Assembly (NCBI RefSeq): GCF_025998535.1
Contig: NZ_AP024233.1
Location: 2,302,001 to 2,366,000, forward strand
Length of the DNA: 64,000 nucleotides
DNA from: Desulfolithobacter dissulfuricans
Lineage (GTDB): Bacteria; Desulfobacterota; Desulfobulbia; Desulfobulbales; Desulfobulbaceae
Direction: 5' to 3'
Shown: positions 15,608 to 29,570 of the stretch, in pieces
How the letters are laid out: every line of letters begins with the position of its first letter
How positions within the stretch are numbered: position 1 is the first letter of the stretch
Made by a program: the position numbers and the translations under genes
The notes under the pieces: model-generated
What the model saw: the letters and a program-made list of their open reading frames with translations, nothing else
The model's database searches: none
Told to the model about the DNA's origin: nothing

Positions 15608-16690
15608 CTACGCAGCCTTTGCCAGGGGGCGAGATTGCGGTTTGTAAAAAGGGTCATATATCTCACCGTGCTGCCAGAGGCGATGCATGAGTACCGCCAG
15701 TTTTCTGGCTACGGCAACCACGGCACGACGCTTTGCGTTTTTACCTCCCCTGGCTGCCAGGCGAAGACCAAATCTTCGTAAATTGCAATCCTCTCCAAAA
15801 GGTCCCAGGATGTACTGGGCCGAACCGACCAGTAACCTCCGCAGATAGGGGTTGCCCGCTTTGGTTATCCGAAGCTGCCTGTCGGTTTCTCCTGACTGGT
15901 CGCGGCGGGGAGTCAGGCCAAGAAAACATCCAACCTGTCTACTTTTGCCAAATCGTGCCGGGTCTTCCACGATTAATAGAAAGGCCAGGGCCGTCAGAGG
16001 ACCAACTCCTTTTATGGCCCGCAATAATTCGGTCTCCGGGTATCGCTCCGCACTGATACGCTCTATTTCCCTGTCAAATTCTTTGATCTGGGACGTAATC
16101 TGGCCGATAATTGTCAATACAGGCTCCAGAGCGCCACGTAAGTCTTCAGGAAGATGTTCATCTGCCTGCCGGTGAAAACTGTCTGCGCTGCATCCCGGCA
16201 GGCGATATCCCAGCGCCTTGACACTGCCACGAACATGGTTGATCAGGCTGGAGCGGTTCCTCACCAGGACATCCCTGGCCTGCAATATCTCCAGATCAAT
16301 CTGGGCCTGTTCGCCCCTGTGGTTGACCGGATAGAGCAGATCAGGATCCATCCGGGCTATGCGGGCCAGCATTTCAGCGTCTCTGGTATCTGATTTATCG
16401 TTGCTGTCCCAGATGGCGCGTAATTTACGAGGGTTGCCAACCAAAACATGGCAGCCCAGCCTGGATAACAGCCTGCTGATCCAGGCCGAATGGGTACCGG
16501 CTTCAAGGGCAACAGTTGCCCCTTTATGGGGTGAGAAAAACTCACTCAACGCCTCTCTGGTATTAGTAACCGTATCTCGACGCACGATTCGGCCTGCATG
16601 ATCAACAATACAGATAACATGATTTTTATCGCCAAGGTCCATTCCGATTGTTACATTGTGCATGGCTGGTTCTCCCAGGTTGTGCAGCAT
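15608..16690 (-). CDS. IS110-family transposase (DEDD recombinase)
   Basis: RNA-guided-type DEDD transposase of 360 residues; the ATG ten codons in (MHNVTIGMDLGDKNH) is an equally likely start. The RuvC-like N-terminal domain shows the acidic set: D in GMDLGDKNH, E in VALEAGTHSAW, and D residues in DKSDTRDAEMLARI. The C-terminal transposase_20 domain contains LLRAIKGVGPLTALAFLLIVEDPARFGKSRQVGCFLGLTPRRDQSG and ITKAGNPYLRRLLVGSAQYIL. The frame is intact and both ends are recognisable, so the element may be active. It is the only transposase seen in the window. Confidence 0.95.
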   Translation of the reverse strand: MLHNLGEPAMHNVTIGMDLGDKNHVICIVDHAGRIVRRDTVTNTREALSEFFSPHKGATVALEAGTHSAWISRLLSRLGCHVLVGNPRKLRAIWDSNDKSDTRDAEMLARIARMDPDLLYPVNHRGEQAQIDLEILQARDVLVRNRSSLINHVRGSVKALGYRLPGCSADSFHRQADEHLPEDLRGALEPVLTIIGQITSQIKEFDREIERISAERYPETELLRAIKGVGPLTALAFLLIVEDPARFGKSRQVGCFLGLTPRRDQSGETDRQLRITKAGNPYLRRLLVGSAQYILGPFGEDCNLRRFGLRLAARGGKNAKRRAVVAVARKLAVLMHRLWQHGEIYDPFYKPQSRPLAKAA

Positions 16691-20865: not shown

Positions 20866-21372
20866 ATGGGAGCGACCAAACGGCTCAGCGCCAGCCTTGA
20901 AGACTATATCGAAGCCATCTATCACATCACCTGCGAAAAACAGGAGGCCCGCGGCAAGGACATCGCAGCCCGCCTGGGAGTCAGCGGAGCCTCTGTGACC
21001 GAGGCGCTGCGCTCCCTGTCACAGAAAGGGCTCATCAACTACACCCCGTACGAGGCCATCACCATGACCGACCTGGGCCGGACAGTGGCTGAGGACGTGG
21101 TCCATCGGCACCAGGCCCTGAAAAAATTCTTCATCGATGTCCTGGCCATCGACCAGGAGATTGCCGAGGAAGGGGCCTGCAAGATAGAACATGCCGCTCC
21201 CCAGGAAATCATTGACCGGCTTGTCCAGTTTACCCGCTTCCTGGAGGTCTGCCCCCGGGGCGGCCGGGATCTCATCCAGGGATTCAGCGATTTCTTTGAT
21301 AAAGGAGAAACCAGGATCGACTGCGAGCACTGCATATCGCAGTGCCTGGAGAATAAACCGAGAAAATCCTGA
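20866..21372 (+). CDS. DtxR/MntR-family metal-dependent transcriptional regulator
   Basis: Cytoplasmic regulator of 168 residues from the ATG at 20866. The N-terminal winged helix is typical (SASLEDYIEAIYHITCEKQEARGKDIAARLGVSGASVTEALRSLSQKGLINYTPYEAITMTDLG). It is followed by the dimerisation and metal-site helix VVHRHQALKKFFIDVLAIDQEIAEEGACKIEHAAPQEIIDRL. The C-terminus has CEHCISQC, a Cys-rich motif that may add a metal ligand. Mn- or Fe-dependent repression is typical of the family, but the metal and targets cannot be told from sequence. It is convergent with the SelW-like gene, with stops two bases apart. Confidence 0.87.
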   Translation: MGATKRLSASLEDYIEAIYHITCEKQEARGKDIAARLGVSGASVTEALRSLSQKGLINYTPYEAITMTDLGRTVAEDVVHRHQALKKFFIDVLAIDQEIAEEGACKIEHAAPQEIIDRLVQFTRFLEVCPRGGRDLIQGFSDFFDKGETRIDCEHCISQCLENKPRKS

Positions 21373-21597
21373 TCAGCCCTTGAGCAGCCCGACGATCTCA
21401 CCCTCTTCCGGAAACCGGTTCAAGGCTTTTTTGGAAAAAATCAGTTCGCCGTCCCGGCTGACCTCAAAGACGCCACCGGACCCGGCGATCAGCTCCACGT
21501 CAACATCAGGACCGAACACCTGCTTCAACTCGGCCTCCAGACTGGAGGCACGCGGTTTATAGTTTCATTTGGAGCAGTATTCAATGGTAACTTTCAT
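21373..21597 (-). CDS. SelW/Rdx-family selenoprotein with in-frame UGA (selenocysteine)
   Basis: 74-residue thioredoxin-like protein missed by standard stop rules. The ATG at 21597 follows AAAGGAGGG. The frame reads MKVTIEYCSK-U-NYKPRASSLEAELKQVF... with a TGA codon at 21567-21565 in the C-x-x-U position typical of SelW. After it the frame continues through VDVELIAGSGGVFEVSRDGELIFSKKALNRFPEEGEIVGLL to TGA at 21373. The GSGGVFEV and RFPEEGEI motifs are family features. A hairpin suited to a bacterial SECIS lies directly downstream of the UGA. The role is probably redox; the substrate is unknown. Expression requires SelA/B/C/D elsewhere in the genome. Confidence 0.87.
21533..21549 (-). promoter_or_regulatory. 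bacterial SECIS-type hairpin
   Basis: On the mRNA, GCCUCCA pairs with UGGAGGC in a perfect 7-base stem with the loop GUC. The loop G is 23 bases after the UGA. This fits the described bacterial SECIS pattern: a short stem and a small loop beginning with G, at about 16-37 bases from the Sec codon. Confidence 0.75.
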
Positions 21598-22106
21598 TGC
21601 AAGCCCTCCTTTGAGCCATGGATCTACGATACACCTGTTTCGGCCAGGATGTTATATCATATCATAAACCATGGGAAAAGAGAGGAGTACCTGAATTGAA
21701 CGTTTCATCACCCCGCAGAGCGGGGCATGGCCTGACGCCACTTCGTCGGCTACCCGGTCACCTGCGTGACACCGCAGAGCGGTGATCACGAGTTTTTCAA
21801 GGTAGCCTTTATTTGTTGCCTGCAGAAGCGTACTTTGAGCAGCCAGGTTTTTTCCACAGGCAGAGAGAAGAAGCAATGTTGTTATCCCTCATATCGGTGA
21901 CAGCTGAGCTTTGGTAGTAATCACAAACAATTACAACTGGTTTTCTTTTAAAGTGTTGCAGGTAAGCGGAGACTCCGGATGGGTGAATCGCTCAATTCAG
22001 GGAGTATGTTTTCCGTTTCCATGCCCGGATCCTGCCGGTATACTGCAGTAGAAGGCCAGACTGGAAGACCAACCTCAGCCACTGCCAAGCCCCAGAGACT
22101 ACACAC
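21598..22106 (+). repeat. gene-free region upstream of gspF with a short repeat fragment
   Basis: 21705-21795 contains a compact version of the CCGC/GCGG hairpins (CACCCCGCAGAGCGGGG and GTGACACCGCAGAGCGGTG) with loops shortened to AGA. About 21958-21977 carries the motif shared with 1853-1872. No coding potential is convincing; the 74-residue minus-strand open frame here has no family features. Confidence 0.6.
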
Positions 22107-23333
22107 ATGCCTGTCTACGAATACACCGCGCTCAGCAGCAGCGGCAAGAAAACAAAAGGCATTATCGACGCCGACTCTGTCAGCGCGGCCCGGCAGAAGA
22201 TAAAGAGCAGGGGCCAGTACCCGGTGGAGATCACCGAGACCACACCCCAGGCAGGAAAATCCGGCAGGACGTCCTTCCTGCACATCGAACTGGGGCAACG
22301 GGTGCGGCAGCAGGAGATCCACATCGCCACCCGCCAGCTGGCCACCCTGCTCGGCGCGGGCATCCCGCTGGTCCAGGCCTTGAACGGCCTCATCGAGCAG
22401 ACCACCAACAAGAGCCTCAAAAAAATCATTGCCCAGATAAAGGACAGCGTCAACGAAGGCAACTCCCTGACCGCGGCCCTGTCCGAACATCCGCGCCTTT
22501 TCTCCCGGATCTACATCAACATGGTCCGGGCCGGCGAGGCCTCCGGCTCCCTGGATGTTGTGCTGGAACGGCTGGCCGAATTCGGTGAGAGCCAGCAGGC
22601 CCTCAAGGCCCGGATCAAGGCCGCTCTCACCTATCCCCTGTTCATGGCCGTGGTCGGTACCCTGGTCCTGTTTCTCCTCATCACCTTTATCGTCCCGAGC
22701 ATCACCAAAGTCTTTGAAGGAACCAGCCAGGCCCTGCCCCTGCCGACGATTATCCTGATCAGCCTGAGCGGGTTTTTCAAAAACTACTGGTGGCTGCTCA
22801 TCCTGCTCATTGTCGCCGCTGTCACCGCCATCCGCTTCTTCATCACCCGGCCCACCGGCCAGCAGCTCTGGGATCGGCTCAAGCTCACCCTGCCCCTGCT
22901 TGGCGACCTCAATATCAAGATCGCCTCGGCCCGCCTGGGCCGGACCCTGTCCAGCCTGCTGGAGTCCGGCGTCCCGCTGGTCACGGCCCTGCAGATCGTC
23001 AAGAACATCCTCAACAACACTATCCTCGCCGACACCATCGACGACGCGACCCGGGAACTGGAAAAAGGCCGCAGCCTCTCGCAGATCCTCAAAAAAAGCC
23101 CTTGGTTTCCTCCCATGCTGGTGCAGATGATCGGAGTCGGGGAGCAGAGCGGCGCCCTGGAGAAGATGCTGGGCAAGGTGGCGGACAACTACGAACGGGA
23201 GGTGGAGGCAAAAATTCTGACCATGACCTCGCTCATCGAACCGATCATGATCCTGGTCATGGGCGGGGTGGTGAGTTTCATCGTGGTTTCCATCCTCCTG
23301 CCCATCTTCGAGATGAACCAGCTGATCCGCTGA
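22107..23333 (+). CDS. gspF: type II secretion / type IV pilus inner-membrane platform protein GspF
   Basis: Polytopic inner-membrane platform protein of 408 residues. It starts MPVYEYTALSSSGKKTKGIIDADS, the canonical GspF/PilC N-terminus. Two T2SSF domains follow (RQLATLLGAGIPLVQALNGL...MVRAGEASGSLDVVLERLAEF and ARLGRTLSSLLESGVPLVTALQIVKN...MIGVGEQSGALEKMLGKVADNYE). Membrane helices lie near 170-190, 220-245 and 375-400. No gspE, gspG or other secretion genes are adjacent, so it is an orphan here. Its last 21 bases recur beyond the four-gene array downstream. Confidence 0.92.
   Translation: MPVYEYTALSSSGKKTKGIIDADSVSAARQKIKSRGQYPVEITETTPQAGKSGRTSFLHIELGQRVRQQEIHIATRQLATLLGAGIPLVQALNGLIEQTTNKSLKKIIAQIKDSVNEGNSLTAALSEHPRLFSRIYINMVRAGEASGSLDVVLERLAEFGESQQALKARIKAALTYPLFMAVVGTLVLFLLITFIVPSITKVFEGTSQALPLPTIILISLSGFFKNYWWLLILLIVAAVTAIRFFITRPTGQQLWDRLKLTLPLLGDLNIKIASARLGRTLSSLLESGVPLVTALQIVKNILNNTILADTIDDATRELEKGRSLSQILKKSPWFPPMLVQMIGVGEQSGALEKMLGKVADNYEREVEAKILTMTSLIEPIMILVMGGVVSFIVVSILLPIFEMNQLIR
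23313..23333 (+). repeat. direct repeat, left copy (3' end of gspF)
   Basis: ATGAACCAGCTGA-T-CCGCTGA, the last codons of gspF; 20 of 21 bases match 30251-30271. Together the copies flank the DUF1703 array and one composite repeat block. Confidence 0.7.
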
Positions 23334-23345
23334 GGAACAGGCGGG

Positions 23346-24896
23346 TTACTGTCCTTGGACTGTTGCCCACTCAAAGCCGACAATATTGCGGCTCTCCTTG
23401 TCGAACTCCACCCCCAGCAGGTAGATCTCGCCCTGGCCACGGTACTTGTCCGCATATCTCTTTTCCCTGATCTGGGCCAGGGCACTGCCTGTTTTCGCCC
23501 CCTTGCTGACCACCTTGAATTCAAGGATATATATCTTGCCTTCGACAAACACGGTCATGTCGATACGGCCGACACTGGTACTGTCCTCGACAACCACGTC
23601 CAGGCCAAGGGCGGTGAAATAGCAGTAGAAGATAGAGGCGTAATACCCTTCATAGCCAGCCAGCTGATTCTTGCGGTACCAGTCGTGGGGGATGGAGGCG
23701 AAAAAGGAGTGAAAAATCTCCCGCAACTCTTCCAGGCGGCCCGCGGCCAGGGCCTCGTAAACCCGGTCTTTCAACAGTTCCCGATCCGACGCCCCGCTGC
23801 GTGACAGGACCTGCAAAAGGGTCTCTGTCAAGCTCATACGCACTTCCAGGTTTGGAAAACCCAACCTGTACGAGGTCCGACCGCCACGTTGTCGTCTTTC
23901 TTTGATGGTCAGGTAACCAGCCTGAAAGAGAAGGGCCTCGGGTTCAATATAGTTCACGTCAAAACTACCGAGGAGCTGTTCCCCTGCCAGCATCTGACCG
24001 AGCCGTGGCGCTGCAATCTGTTTCCGCAACAAAAGATTAATCAAAAACGTCGGATTGCCTGTTTCGAACCAGTAGGCGCGAAAATCCTTGTTCCGCAAAA
24101 ACAGCAGCACATCAAACGGATTGTATACCAGATCGCCAAGCCAGTTGTAGCCATTGTACCAGCGCCGCAGCTCCTCCAGATCCACCCCCTCCAGGTATTC
24201 GGCAAAGACCTGTTCCACGTCCCGCTGGGTATAGCCGCAGATGGTGGCATACCGTTTGTCCAGGGTGATATCCTCCAGGTTGTTCAAGCCGCTGAAAAGC
24301 GACACTTTGCTGAACTTGGAAACACCGGCGAGAAAAACAAACCGCAACTGGGCATCACGGGCCTTGAGCACCGAATAAAGATTACGGAGTCCATCGCGCA
24401 GCTCTGTAGCCAGTTCGGGAGATTCCAGGTTATCCAGGATCGGTTTGTCATACTCGTCCACAAGCACCACAACACGCTCACCTACAGATTCGTGCAGGCG
24501 CAGGATAAGTTCATCCAGACAATCTCCAGGGTCGTTACGGGACAGGGTAATATTCCACTGGGACGCGTTCTCATCCAACTGCTGCCGGATCCGCTCTGCA
24601 AGCCGACCTGTACTCTGTATCACCCCACCGGCAAAATCAATGCGCACCACGGGATGGCGCCGGCTCCAGTCCCAGTGATTTTCCAGGTACAGCCCGGTAA
24701 ACAGCTCCCGGCTGCCGGCAAACGCCTCGGCAATGGTGTCCAGCAGCAGAGACTTGCCAAAGCGCCGCGGACGGGAAAGAAAATAACTCTTCCCCTGATC
24801 GGCCAACCGGTAAATCAGCGGCGTCTTGTCCACATAGCAATAATTGTCAGACCGGATCTCGGCAAAGGTCTGAACTCCTATGGGAAGTTTCTTCAT
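23346..24896 (-). CDS. AAA-ATPase/PD-(D/E)XK (DUF1703-type) array, gene 4 (cassettes a, x)
   Basis: Last transcribed of four tandem paralogues, 516 residues, ATG at 24896. The N-terminal AAA-ATPase-like domain has a Walker-A-like RPRRFGKS (42-49) and Walker B VVVLVDEYDKP (DEYD at 147-150). The C-terminal PD-(D/E)XK nuclease-like domain has D446 in GRIDMTV, then E459 and K461 in YILEFKV. Between them are two segments that differ in blocks among the copies. V1 is about residues 92-138 and is type a here (VIQSTGRLAERIRQQ). V2 is about 267-396 and is type x (LRNKDFRAYWFETG). The start overlaps the preceding gene's stop (ATGA). Family function is not established. C-terminus ends ATVQGQ, unlike its siblings. 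Confidence 0.85.
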   Translation of the reverse strand: MKKLPIGVQTFAEIRSDNYCYVDKTPLIYRLADQGKSYFLSRPRRFGKSLLLDTIAEAFAGSRELFTGLYLENHWDWSRRHPVVRIDFAGGVIQSTGRLAERIRQQLDENASQWNITLSRNDPGDCLDELILRLHESVGERVVVLVDEYDKPILDNLESPELATELRDGLRNLYSVLKARDAQLRFVFLAGVSKFSKVSLFSGLNNLEDITLDKRYATICGYTQRDVEQVFAEYLEGVDLEELRRWYNGYNWLGDLVYNPFDVLLFLRNKDFRAYWFETGNPTFLINLLLRKQIAAPRLGQMLAGEQLLGSFDVNYIEPEALLFQAGYLTIKERRQRGGRTSYRLGFPNLEVRMSLTETLLQVLSRSGASDRELLKDRVYEALAAGRLEELREIFHSFFASIPHDWYRKNQLAGYEGYYASIFYCYFTALGLDVVVEDSTSVGRIDMTVFVEGKIYILEFKVVSKGAKTGSALAQIREKRYADKYRGQGEIYLLGVEFDKESRNIVGFEWATVQGQ

Positions 24897-26470
24897 GACA
24901 GTCCTTGGGCTGTTGCCCACTCAAAGCCGACAATATTGCGGCTCTCCTTGTCGAACTCCACCCCCAGCAGGTAGATCTCGCCCTGGCCACGGTACTTGTC
25001 CGCATATCTCTTTTCCCTGATCTGGGCCAGGGCACTGCCTGTTTTCGCCCCCTTGCTGACCACCTTGAATTCAAGGATATATATCTTGCCTTCGACAAAC
25101 ACGGTCATGTCGATACGGCCGACACTGGTACTGTCCTCGACAACCACGTCCAGGCCAAGGGCGGTGAAATAGCAGTAGAAGATAGAGGCGTAATACCCTT
25201 CATAGCCAGCCAGCTGATTCTTGCGGTACCAGGTGGTGAGCGGAGCGAATGACCGGTCGTGGGGGATAGAGGCGAAAAAGGCGTGAAAGATATCCCGCAT
25301 GACATCGCAGTCGCCGGCGGCCAGGGCCTGGTACAGGGCCATCTGGTAACGGGCTCTCTCTCCAGCCGATTTGGCCAATGCTGACAGAATCGTCCCGGTA
25401 AGGGCCCGTTTCACCTCCCGATTGGGATAGGTGAGCGTGTAGAAATACTCGTTACCCAGCCGGTGGCGTTCCTTAATGGTGAGATAGCCGGTCTGGAACA
25501 GAAGCGTCTCAAGCTCCAGACTCCCCACGTCAAAGCTACTCAACAACTCGTCGCTGGCCATCACCCGTTCCAGGTTGGGAACCGGGTAACGCCGTTCCTC
25601 GACGAGCCGCACCAGGAAGGACGGATTGCCGGTTTCAAACCAATAGTTACGGTACTCCTTTTCCTTGGCGAAAAACAGCAGCACATCAAACGGATTATAC
25701 ACCGGCTCGCCAAGCCAGTTGTAGCCATTGTACCAGCGCCGCAGCTCCTCCAGATCCACCCCCTCCAGGTATTCGGCAAAGACCTGCTCCACGTCCTGCT
25801 GGGTATAGCCGCAGATGGTGGCATACCGTTTGTCCAGGGTGAGATCCTCCAGATTGTTCAAGCCGCTGAAAAGCGATACCTTGCTGAACTTGGAAACTCC
25901 GGTGAGAAAAACAAACCGCAGCTGGGCATCATGGGCCTTGAGCACCGAATAAAGATTACGGAGTCCATCGCGCAGCTCTGTAGCCAGTTCGGGAGATTCC
26001 AGGTTATCCAGGATCGGTTTGTCATACTCGTCCACAAGCACCACAACACGCTCACCTGAAGTCTCATGCAGACGTTCAATCAGCTCTGACAAGACCAGAT
26101 GAGCCAACCGTTGCTCCAGCTCGATACCAAAGCGCAGACCTTGCTGCCGCAGCATGGCAATAATTGTCTCATCCAGTTCTGCCCTGTTGCGCATCACCCC
26201 GCCGGCAAAATCGATACGCACCACCGGATACCGCCTGTCCCAGTCCCAGTGATTTTCCAGGTACAGCCCGGTAAACAGCTCCCGGCTGCCGGCAAACGCC
26301 TCGGCAATGGTGTCCAGCAGCAGAGACTTGCCAAAGCGCCGCGGACGGGAAAGAAAATAACTCTTCCCCTGATCGGCCAACCGGTAAATCAGCGGCGTCT
26401 TGTCCACATAGCAATAATTGTCAGACCGGATCTCGGCAAAGGTCTGAACTCCTATGGGAAGTTTCTTCAT
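24893..26470 (-). CDS. AAA-ATPase/PD-(D/E)XK (DUF1703-type) array, gene 3 (cassettes b, y)
   Basis: Third transcribed paralogue, 525 residues, ATG at 26470 overlapping the upstream stop by four bases. It carries V1 type b (MRNRAELDETIIAMLRQQG) and V2 type y (FAKEKEYRNYWFETGNPSFL). It is eight residues longer than the others because of an in-frame 24-base insertion (25233-25256, encoding RSFAPLTT) just before the nuclease domain. The insert DNA (GTGAGCGGAGCGAATGA region) resembles the local REP-like palindrome. ATPase and nuclease residues are intact. The stop TGA overlaps the ATG of gene 4. Confidence 0.85.
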   Translation of the reverse strand: MKKLPIGVQTFAEIRSDNYCYVDKTPLIYRLADQGKSYFLSRPRRFGKSLLLDTIAEAFAGSRELFTGLYLENHWDWDRRYPVVRIDFAGGVMRNRAELDETIIAMLRQQGLRFGIELEQRLAHLVLSELIERLHETSGERVVVLVDEYDKPILDNLESPELATELRDGLRNLYSVLKAHDAQLRFVFLTGVSKFSKVSLFSGLNNLEDLTLDKRYATICGYTQQDVEQVFAEYLEGVDLEELRRWYNGYNWLGEPVYNPFDVLLFFAKEKEYRNYWFETGNPSFLVRLVEERRYPVPNLERVMASDELLSSFDVGSLELETLLFQTGYLTIKERHRLGNEYFYTLTYPNREVKRALTGTILSALAKSAGERARYQMALYQALAAGDCDVMRDIFHAFFASIPHDRSFAPLTTWYRKNQLAGYEGYYASIFYCYFTALGLDVVVEDSTSVGRIDMTVFVEGKIYILEFKVVSKGAKTGSALAQIREKRYADKYRGQGEIYLLGVEFDKESRNIVGFEWATAQGLS

Positions 26471-28020
26471 GACAGTCCTTGGGCTGTTGCCCACTCAAAG
26501 CCGACAATATTGCGGCTCTCCTTGTCGAACTCCACCCCCAGCAGGTAGATCTCGCCCTGGCCACGGTACTTGTCCGCATATCTCTTTTCCCTGATCTGGG
26601 CCAGGGCACTGCCTGTTTTCGCCCCCTTGCTGACCACCTTGAATTCAAGGATATATATCTTGCCTTCGACAAACACGGTCATGTCGATACGGCCGACACT
26701 GGTACTGTCCTCGACAACCACGTCCAGGCCAAGGGCGGTGAAATAGCAGTAGAAGATAGAGGCGTAATACCCTTCATAGCCAGCCAGCTGATTCTTGCGG
26801 TACCAGTCGTGGGGGATGGAGGCGAAAAAGGAGTGAAAAATCTCCCGCAACTCTTCCAGGCGGCCCGCGGCCAGGGCCTCGTAAACCCGGTCTTTCAACA
26901 GTTCCCGATCCGACGCCCCGCTGCGTGACAGGACCTGCAAAAGGGTCTCTGTCAAGCTCATACGCACTTCCAGGTTTGGAAAACCCAACCTGTACGAGGT
27001 CCGACCGCCACGTTGTCGTCTTTCTTTGATGGTCAGGTAACCAGCCTGAAAGAGAAGGGCCTCGGGTTCAATATAGTTCACGTCAAAACTACCGAGGAGC
27101 TGTTCCCCTGCCAGCATCTGACCGAGCCGTGGCGCTGCAATCTGTTTCCGCAACAAAAGATTAATCAAAAACGTCGGATTGCCTGTTTCGAACCAGTAGG
27201 CGCGAAAATCCTTGTTCCGCAAAAACAGCAGCACATCAAACGGATTGTATACCAGATCGCCAAGCCAGTTGTAGCCATTGTACCAGCGCCGCAACTCCTC
27301 GAGATCCACACCCCCCAGGTATTCGGCAAAAACCTGTTCCACGTCCCGCTGGGTATAGCCGCAGATGGTGGCATACCGTTTGTCCAGGGTGATATCCTCC
27401 AGGTTGTTCAAGCCGCTGAAAAGCGATACCTTGCTGAACTTGGAAACACCGGCGAGAAAAACAAACCGCAACTGGGCATCACGGGCCTTGAGCACCGAAT
27501 AAAGATTACGGAGACCATCGCGCAGCTCTGTAGCCAGTTCGGGAGATTCCAGGTTATCCAGGATCGGCTTGTCATACTCGTCCACAAGCACCACAACACG
27601 CTCACCTGAAGTCTCATGCAGACGTTCAATCAGCTCTGACAAGACCAGGTGAGCCAACCGTTGCTCCAGCTCGATACCAAAGCGCAGACCTTGTTGCCGC
27701 AGCATGGCAATAATTGTCTCATCCAGTTCTGCCCTGTTGCGCATCACCCCGCCGGCAAAATCGATACGCACCACCGGATACCGCCTGTCCCAGTCCCAGT
27801 GATTTTCCAGGTACAGCCCGGTAAACAGCTCCCGGCTGCCGGCAAACGCCTCGGCAATGGTGTCCAGCAGCAGAGACTTGCCAAAGCGCCGCGGACGGGA
27901 AAGAAAATAACTCTTCCCCTGATCGGCCAACCGGTAAATCAGCGGCGTCTTGTCCACATAGCAATAATTGTCAGACCGGATCTCGGCAAAGGTCTGAACT
28001 CCTATGGGAAGTTTCTTCAT
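26467..28020 (-). CDS. AAA-ATPase/PD-(D/E)XK (DUF1703-type) array, gene 2 (cassettes b, x)
   Basis: Second transcribed paralogue, 517 residues. It combines V1 type b with V2 type x. It shares the whole second half with gene 4 and the first half with gene 3, apart from a few substitutions (for example EYLGGVD where others have EYLEGVD). Walker A, Walker B and the D...ExK nuclease pattern are present. Four-base ATGA overlaps at both ends imply translational coupling. Near-identity of the nuclease-domain DNA with genes 3 and 4 points to recent duplication or gene conversion. Confidence 0.85.
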   Translation of the reverse strand: MKKLPIGVQTFAEIRSDNYCYVDKTPLIYRLADQGKSYFLSRPRRFGKSLLLDTIAEAFAGSRELFTGLYLENHWDWDRRYPVVRIDFAGGVMRNRAELDETIIAMLRQQGLRFGIELEQRLAHLVLSELIERLHETSGERVVVLVDEYDKPILDNLESPELATELRDGLRNLYSVLKARDAQLRFVFLAGVSKFSKVSLFSGLNNLEDITLDKRYATICGYTQRDVEQVFAEYLGGVDLEELRRWYNGYNWLGDLVYNPFDVLLFLRNKDFRAYWFETGNPTFLINLLLRKQIAAPRLGQMLAGEQLLGSFDVNYIEPEALLFQAGYLTIKERRQRGGRTSYRLGFPNLEVRMSLTETLLQVLSRSGASDRELLKDRVYEALAAGRLEELREIFHSFFASIPHDWYRKNQLAGYEGYYASIFYCYFTALGLDVVVEDSTSVGRIDMTVFVEGKIYILEFKVVSKGAKTGSALAQIREKRYADKYRGQGEIYLLGVEFDKESRNIVGFEWATAQGLS

Positions 28021-29570
28021 GACAGTCCTTCTGCTGCTGTCCACTCAAAGCCGACAATATTGCGGTTCTCCTTGTCGAACTCCACCCCCAGCAGGTAGAT
28101 CTCGCCCTGGCCACGGTACTTGTCCGCATACCTCTTTTCCCGGATCTGGGCCAGGGCACTCCCTGTTTCCGCACCCTTGTCCACCACCTTGAATTCAATG
28201 ATATAGATCTTGCCCTCGATCCGTACTGTCATGTCGATGCGGCCCGCATTGGTGGTGTCCTCGGCAATCACGTCCAGGCCAAGGGCGGTGAAATAGCAGT
28301 AGAAAATTGAGGCATAATACCCTTCGTAGCCAGCCAGCTGGTTTTTTCTATACCAGTCATGGGGGATGGAGGCGAAAAAGGCGTGAAAGATATCCCGCAT
28401 GACAGCGCAGTCGCCGGCGGCCAGGGCCTGGTACAGGGCCATCTGGTAACGGGCTCTCTCTCCAGCCGATTTGGCCAATGCTGACAGAATCGTCCCGGTA
28501 AGGGCCCGTTTCACCTCCCGATTGGGATAGGTGAGCGTGTAGAAATACTCGTTACCCAGCCGGTGGCGTTCCTTAATGGTGAGATAGCCGGTCTGGAACA
28601 GAAGCGTCTCAAGCTCCAGACTCCCCACGTCAAAGCTGCTCAACAACTCGTCGCTCGCCATCACCCGTTCCAGGTTGGGAACAGGGTAACGCCGCTCCTC
28701 AACAAGACGGACCAGAAAAGACGGGTTGCCGGTCTCAAACCAGTAGTTGCGATACTCCTTATCCTTGGCGAAAAACAGCAGCACATCAAACGGATTGTAC
28801 ACCGGTTCGCCAAGCCAGTTGTAGCCATTGTACCAGCGCCGCAGCTCCTCGAGATCCACCCCCTCCAGGTATTCGGCAAAGACCTCCTCCACATCCCTGT
28901 GGGTATAACCGCAGATGGTGGCATACCGTTTGTCCAGGGTGATATCCTCCAGGTTGTTCAAACCGCTGAAAAGCGATACCTTGCTGAATTTGGAAACTCC
29001 GGTGAGAAAGACAAACCGCAGCTGGGCGTCCCGGGCCTTGAGCACCGAGTAGAGGTTACGAAGGCCATCGCGAAGTTCTGTAGCCAACTCGGGAGATTCC
29101 AGGTTATCGAGAATCGGTTTGTCATATTCGTCGACCAGCACCACCACCCGCTCGCCGAGGGATTCGTGCAGGCGCAGGATAAGTTCATCCAGACAATCTC
29201 CAGGGTCGTTACGTGACAGGGTAATATTCCACTGGGACGCGTTCTCATCCAACTGCTGCCGGATCCGCTCTGCAAGCCGACCTGTACTCTGTATCACCCC
29301 ACCGGCAAAATCGATACGCACCACCGGATACCGCCTGTCCCAGTCCCAGTGATTTTCCAGATACAGTCCGGTAAACAGCTCCCGGCTGCCGGCAAACGCC
29401 TCGGCAATGGTGTCCAGCAGCAGAGACTTGCCAAAGCGCCGCGGACGGGAAAGAAAATAACTCTTCCCCTGATCGGCCAACCGGTAAATCAGTGGCGTCT
29501 TGTCCACATAGCAATAATTGTCAGACCGGATCTCGGCAAAGGTCTGAACTCCTATGGGAAGTTTCTTCAT
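28017..29570 (-). CDS. AAA-ATPase/PD-(D/E)XK (DUF1703-type) array, gene 1 (cassettes a, y)
   Basis: First transcribed gene of the array, 517 residues from the ATG at 29570 (MKKLPIGVQTFAEIRSDNYCYVDKTPLIYRL). An upstream extension to 29732 is repeat-encoded and not credible. It carries V1 type a and V2 type y. Its C-terminal domain is the most divergent of the four (VIAEDTTNAGRIDMTVRIEGKIYIIEFKVVDKGAETG), but the D...ExK pattern is kept. The other three share one C-terminal version, suggesting they were copied from one another after divergence from gene 1. The promoter should lie in 29571-29700. Confidence 0.85.
   Translation of the reverse strand: MKKLPIGVQTFAEIRSDNYCYVDKTPLIYRLADQGKSYFLSRPRRFGKSLLLDTIAEAFAGSRELFTGLYLENHWDWDRRYPVVRIDFAGGVIQSTGRLAERIRQQLDENASQWNITLSRNDPGDCLDELILRLHESLGERVVVLVDEYDKPILDNLESPELATELRDGLRNLYSVLKARDAQLRFVFLTGVSKFSKVSLFSGLNNLEDITLDKRYATICGYTHRDVEEVFAEYLEGVDLEELRRWYNGYNWLGEPVYNPFDVLLFFAKDKEYRNYWFETGNPSFLVRLVEERRYPVPNLERVMASDELLSSFDVGSLELETLLFQTGYLTIKERHRLGNEYFYTLTYPNREVKRALTGTILSALAKSAGERARYQMALYQALAAGDCAVMRDIFHAFFASIPHDWYRKNQLAGYEGYYASIFYCYFTALGLDVIAEDTTNAGRIDMTVRIEGKIYIIEFKVVDKGAETGSALAQIREKRYADKYRGQGEIYLLGVEFDKENRNIVGFEWTAAEGLS

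Follow-up and report, generated by a model that had tools for sequence, protein, structure and literature searches.

Is the UGA that interrupts a short reading frame in the genome of Desulfolithobacter dissulfuricans a selenocysteine (Sec) codon, and is the hairpin that follows it a bacterial SECIS element? The question arises within the window, the whole 64,000-nucleotide stretch of DNA analysed here, from a 74-codon SelW-type frame proposed in a preliminary description. The frame is borne out. Read on the minus strand, which that description did not give, it encodes MKVTIEYCSKUNYKPRASSLEAELKQVFGPDVDVELIAGSGGVFEVSRDGELIFSKKALNRFPEEGEIVGLLKG, followed by a UGA; translation of 21373-21597 on the plus strand gave no sensible protein. 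The product falls within the SelW-like/Rdx family by curated profiles whose match runs across the in-frame UGA. Specifically, it matches Rdx (PF10262) with 78.3 bits (cut-off 22.6; E 5.2e-22; residues 2-72), SelTWH (NF041051) with 104.5 bits (cut-off 88; E 2.6e-30; residues 3-73) and TIGR02174 with 65.6 bits (cut-off 34.2). The Rdx protein 2fa8 (E 2.6e-10) is among its nearest solved relatives, and the genome holds a single Rdx gene copy. The ribosome-binding site is as strong as had been described, and similar Shine-Dalgarno-like motifs lie 5' of the gene in 83 of 95 Sec homologues. UGA also serves as the terminal stop in 48 of 106 Sec homologues.

Table 1. Positions of the selW gene, its signals and its neighbours in the window
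Feature	Position	Strand	Evidence
SelW-like (Rdx family) selenoprotein gene, 74 codons + UGA stop	21373..21597	minus	translation, Pfam PF10262, NCBIfam NF041051
Shine-Dalgarno AGGAGG, 7 nt 5' of ATG	21605..21610	minus	sequence
In-frame UGA, Sec codon 11, second position of C-S-K-U motif (Cys codon 21574-21576)	21565..21567	minus	translation, homologues
Bacterial SECIS hairpin, 7-bp stem + GUC loop (loop 21540-21542, conserved G 21542)	21533..21549	minus	fold, compensatory changes, synonymous-codon null, covariance model
Core helix conserved across homologues, 6 bp	21534-21539 with 21543-21548	minus	comparison
Terminal UGA stop of selW, abutting the stop of the convergent gene (TGA/TCA)	21373..21375	minus	sequence
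DtxR-type metal-dependent repressor gene, tail to tail with selW	20866..21372	plus	Pfam PF02742, PF01325
Type II secretion/pilus GspF-type gene, upstream of selW, divergent	22107..23333	plus	Pfam PF00482

To place the UGA in a wider setting, we drew homologues from two sources, a collection of genomes covering 84,980 species and whole genomes of the family; together these gave 97 distinct sequences over the region, from several phyla. The redox codon is UGA in 93 of them and UGC (TGC) in 4. Alignment with these Cys homologues, which had been recommended as a check, puts the Sec of CSKU opposite Cys, as expected for a CxxU protein with its UGA at the redox position of the family. As had also been claimed, the protein sequence remains conserved among homologues after the UGA.

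The hairpin itself, confirmed by sequence and by folding, is a perfect 7-bp stem closed by a GUC loop (GCCUCCA-GUC-UGGAGGC). It starts 15 nt 3' of UGA codon 11; the loop G lies 23 nt past the last UGA base, the distance originally reported, with 22 nt between UGA and loop. The published bSECIS model calls for a loop of 3-9 nt, a stem of 4-16 bp, a G within the first two loop positions and a UGA-to-loop spacing of 16-37 nt (PMC13188914), and the selW hairpin satisfies every one of these constraints (loop 3 nt, stem 7 bp, G first, spacing 22 nt). At the gathering threshold, no Rfam family was matched in the 64-kb window. The sole Rfam likeness at a lax threshold, to a viral frameshift hairpin, involved the stem sequence only and appeared on both strands, the stem being a palindrome; we judged it to be chance.

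Considered on its own, the hairpin is only mildly unusual. The fold z-score of the region in this single sequence is -2.7 on 47 nt and -0.6 on 81 nt, and a 7-bp stem arises in 3.4% of random synonymous recodings of the SelW protein (probability 0.034). This last figure, which concerns one sequence, favours a reading in which the UGA is decoded as Sec, SelB is recruited in some other way and the hairpin is a mere by-product of the coding sequence. Comparative evidence, however, lifts the hairpin well beyond chance. Under synonymous resampling weighted by codon usage elsewhere in these genes, 4.3 +/- 1.9 of the 93 Sec homologues should be able to form the 6-bp core stem, and 74 can; 55.6 +/- 3.2 should carry the loop G, which all 93 do. 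In an alignment of 61 distinct rows, pairing holds in 96.7% of stem cells (84.3 +/- 1.0 in shuffles) and 45 cells carry double-sided changes (10.6 +/- 6.0 in shuffles). Sliding the partners by 1-3 columns destroyed the pairing, and compensatory changes were largely absent from these slid controls. One stem pair, 21/33, is seen as UA, CG, GC, UG, GU and AU across the homologues. By the synonymous-codon null, and by pair counts set against shuffled and slid controls, the hairpin is conserved beyond coding constraint.

The codon under the loop makes the same case from the side of the protein. Codon +8 after Sec, which holds the loop G, specifies Ser in 51, Gly in 21 and Arg in 21 of the 93 Sec homologues, and although the amino acid varies, the middle base is always G (AGT, GGT, AGG, CGT or GGG). 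Ser at +8 is written AGT in 51 of 51 cases, whereas Ser at +7 is written TCC in 71 of 73. All four Cys homologues have Ala or Lys at +8 and retain neither the loop G nor the stem that goes with it. This exchange of Ser, Arg and Gly solely through central-G codons clearly illustrates how RNA structure can restrict a protein sequence. Thus, we regard the by-product reading as very improbable.

A covariance model provided a further view of the same site. It was trained on 25 homologues that lie outside Desulfobacterota by their record titles, some of which name no phylum; the training groups include Neomarinimicrobiota, KSB1, Gemmatimonadota and Planctomycetota, among others. The model ranks 21567-21526 first in the window (54.1 bits, E 1.6e-13, a score that owes part of its size to protein conservation through the coding columns of the model), and the next match there has an E of 0.11. 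The site is also ranked first genome-wide (E 9.4e-12). That whole-genome search missed the other Sec genes; since most of what the SelW-trained model captures is SelW coding sequence, this was to be expected. With the bSECIS constraints, the compensatory changes, the invariant loop G and this out-of-phylum model, what had been called a SECIS-like hairpin now has its identification upheld.

Can the genome decode such a signal? The bacterial Sec pathway comprises SelA, SelB, SelC and SelD (PMC1794560), and the genes for all four are present, giving the genome the Sec-decoding trait; this was a check that the preliminary description had proposed. selA (637 bits), selB (380 bits) and selD (352 bits) all exceed curated cut-offs, and the tRNA-Sec (73 bits) is the sole match above its family cut-off, with the anticodon tca (UCA) assigned by ARAGORN. 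All of them sit on the window's own contig, a single one of 3,596,428 bases. An in-frame UGA also occurs in selD (TVKAAG-U-AAKLG) and in three formate-dehydrogenase-like genes, two of which have the motif U-H-(S/A)-(T/P)-TVAG followed by hairpins. With selW, the genome therefore has at least five candidate selenoproteins. selD and the three formate-dehydrogenase-like genes lie outside the window.

An Rdx gene occurs in 43 of 73 same-family genomes, each time with exactly one in-frame TGA; phylum-wide, Rdx genes have a TGA in 42 of 45 cases and none in 3. Among SelW-bearing genomes of the family, selB was not found above its cut-off in 3 of 43 and is split across contigs in a fourth, and all four of these assemblies are incomplete. 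Of the 30 family genomes lacking the Rdx gene, 22 (mostly of one genus, g7) have selB above its cut-off; the gene can therefore be lost while the Sec trait stays. In genus g7, all 23 genomes lack SelW and 20 have selB above its cut-off, a pattern that suggests loss of SelW without loss of the Sec trait. In genus g11, both the SelW gene and selB are absent.

Two readings that dispense with selenocysteine fare worse still. An in-frame stop within a small ORF can mean decay, and the SelW gene is single-copy, so it might be a pseudogene whose UGA is a premature nonsense codon. Against this, 93 of 97 homologues from several phyla have UGA at the very same codon, the protein is conserved past it, the strong Shine-Dalgarno motif is retained, the decoding genes are present and the SECIS is under selection. 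We rejected this reading on the conserved UGA and the conservation downstream of it, and give it next to no chance. Equally negligible is a genome in which UGA means Trp or Cys, by the reassignment that does occur in some bacteria or by plain readthrough: selW itself terminates at UGA, selA, selB and those FdhA-like genes that lack Sec sites contain no in-frame stops, the in-frame UGAs found all belong to known Sec families (SelD, FdhA, SelW), and full Sec machinery and a SECIS are present. The preliminary description had named two findings that would tell against it, absence of selA, selB or tRNA-Sec, and homologues unconserved after the UGA; since these genes are present and that conservation holds, the selenoprotein claim survives both.

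The surroundings of the gene are shared as well. Among 98 homologous selW loci, a DtxR-type repressor is convergent with selW in 43, with stops mostly no more than about 60 bp apart; recN follows in 44 of them and in 19 a ThiI-like gene does; the GspF-type gene is upstream and divergent in 25. This shared neighbourhood points to a real gene that has been inherited vertically, though a neighbourhood alone does not show function. A functional or regulatory link between selW and DtxR that goes beyond inherited gene order, such as convergent transcription that ties selenoprotein W to metal sensing, seems to us improbable.

Other features of the region are worth recording. On the minus strand, 23346-24920, 24893-26494 and 26467-28044 hold a tandem array of three nearly identical genes encoding about 525-533 aa each, the first of which matches AAA-ATPase_like (PF09820) and PDDEXK_9. 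Dispersed intergenic repeats with CCGCAGAGCGG-like palindromes occur at about 14.8-15.1, 19.9-20.8 and 21.7-21.8 kb; one palindrome-rich repeat is directly upstream of selW, and spurious translations of these repeats recur (DTAGADVTR, VTPQERMSRG). An IS110-type transposase gene (PF02371, PF01548) is found at 15608-16690 on the minus strand.

Looking across the entire analysis, we consider it nearly certain that the locus is a functional SelW-like selenoprotein gene with a bacterial SECIS. The gene, its family, the conservation of the UGA, the RNA structure and the decoding genes were all computed here. From established knowledge of the pathway, we infer how they would work together. SelB carrying Sec-tRNA(Sec) would bind the mRNA hairpin, with the loop guanosine as the key contact, and would deliver selenocysteine to the ribosome at UGA codon 11. 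Translation would then run on to the terminal UGA, which has no such hairpin after it. The predicted product is a 74-residue SelW/Rdx protein with a thioredoxin-like fold, in which the selenol/thiol pair of CxxU most likely acts in thiol oxidoreduction. The CxxU motif suggests this redox role, as does the interaction with glutathione reported for SelW (PMC1088965).

SelW-like selenoproteins are a known family, and the locus is a well-supported further member of low novelty that opens no new mechanism. Ordinary gene calling would cut such a textbook selenoprotein gene to ten codons or miss it; here raw sequence revealed it and comparison with homologues bore it out. The view that it is hidden stands for naive gene calling; it does not extend to curated resources and the literature, as NF041051 and published selenoprotein studies already cover the family.

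The closest known counterpart is the SelW-like selenoprotein with a CxxU motif reported in Desulfotalea psychrophila, a deltaproteobacterial sulfate reducer (PMC1794560). Family, CxxU site and a bacterial SECIS 3' of the UGA are all alike; the species differs, the present one belonging to a Desulfobulbaceae lineage with one genome here, and no functional difference was found between the two. The same study noted that Cys forms of the SelW family are few or missing in Sec-using organisms (PMC1794560), a scarcity that matches our homologue counts. In Epsilonproteobacteria, SelW genes were completely missed in annotation (PMC4607533). The present gene passes the curated cut-off of the model for that group (NF041051, SelTWH_Campy) and shares its hairpin with an invariant loop G, but comes from a different phylum. 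More distant are mammalian selenoprotein W (2npb) and MIEN1/C17orf37 (2ljk), members of the same Rdx superfamily, with CxxU in SelW, whose sequence similarity to the product is weak (E 0.005 and 6e-8, respectively). In animals, the SECIS sits in the 3' UTR. MIEN1 is reported to have a thioredoxin-like fold (PMC3527542). Finally, SelW-like proteins are the most abundant selenoprotein family in marine surveys, and the GOS marine metagenomes contributed 427 selenoproteins and 56 Cys homologues for this family (PMC1088965, PMC2398784). These share the CxxU motif and the bacterial SECIS with the gene described here. They are, however, fragments without genome context, whereas here selA, selB, selC and selD lie together with selW on one contig.
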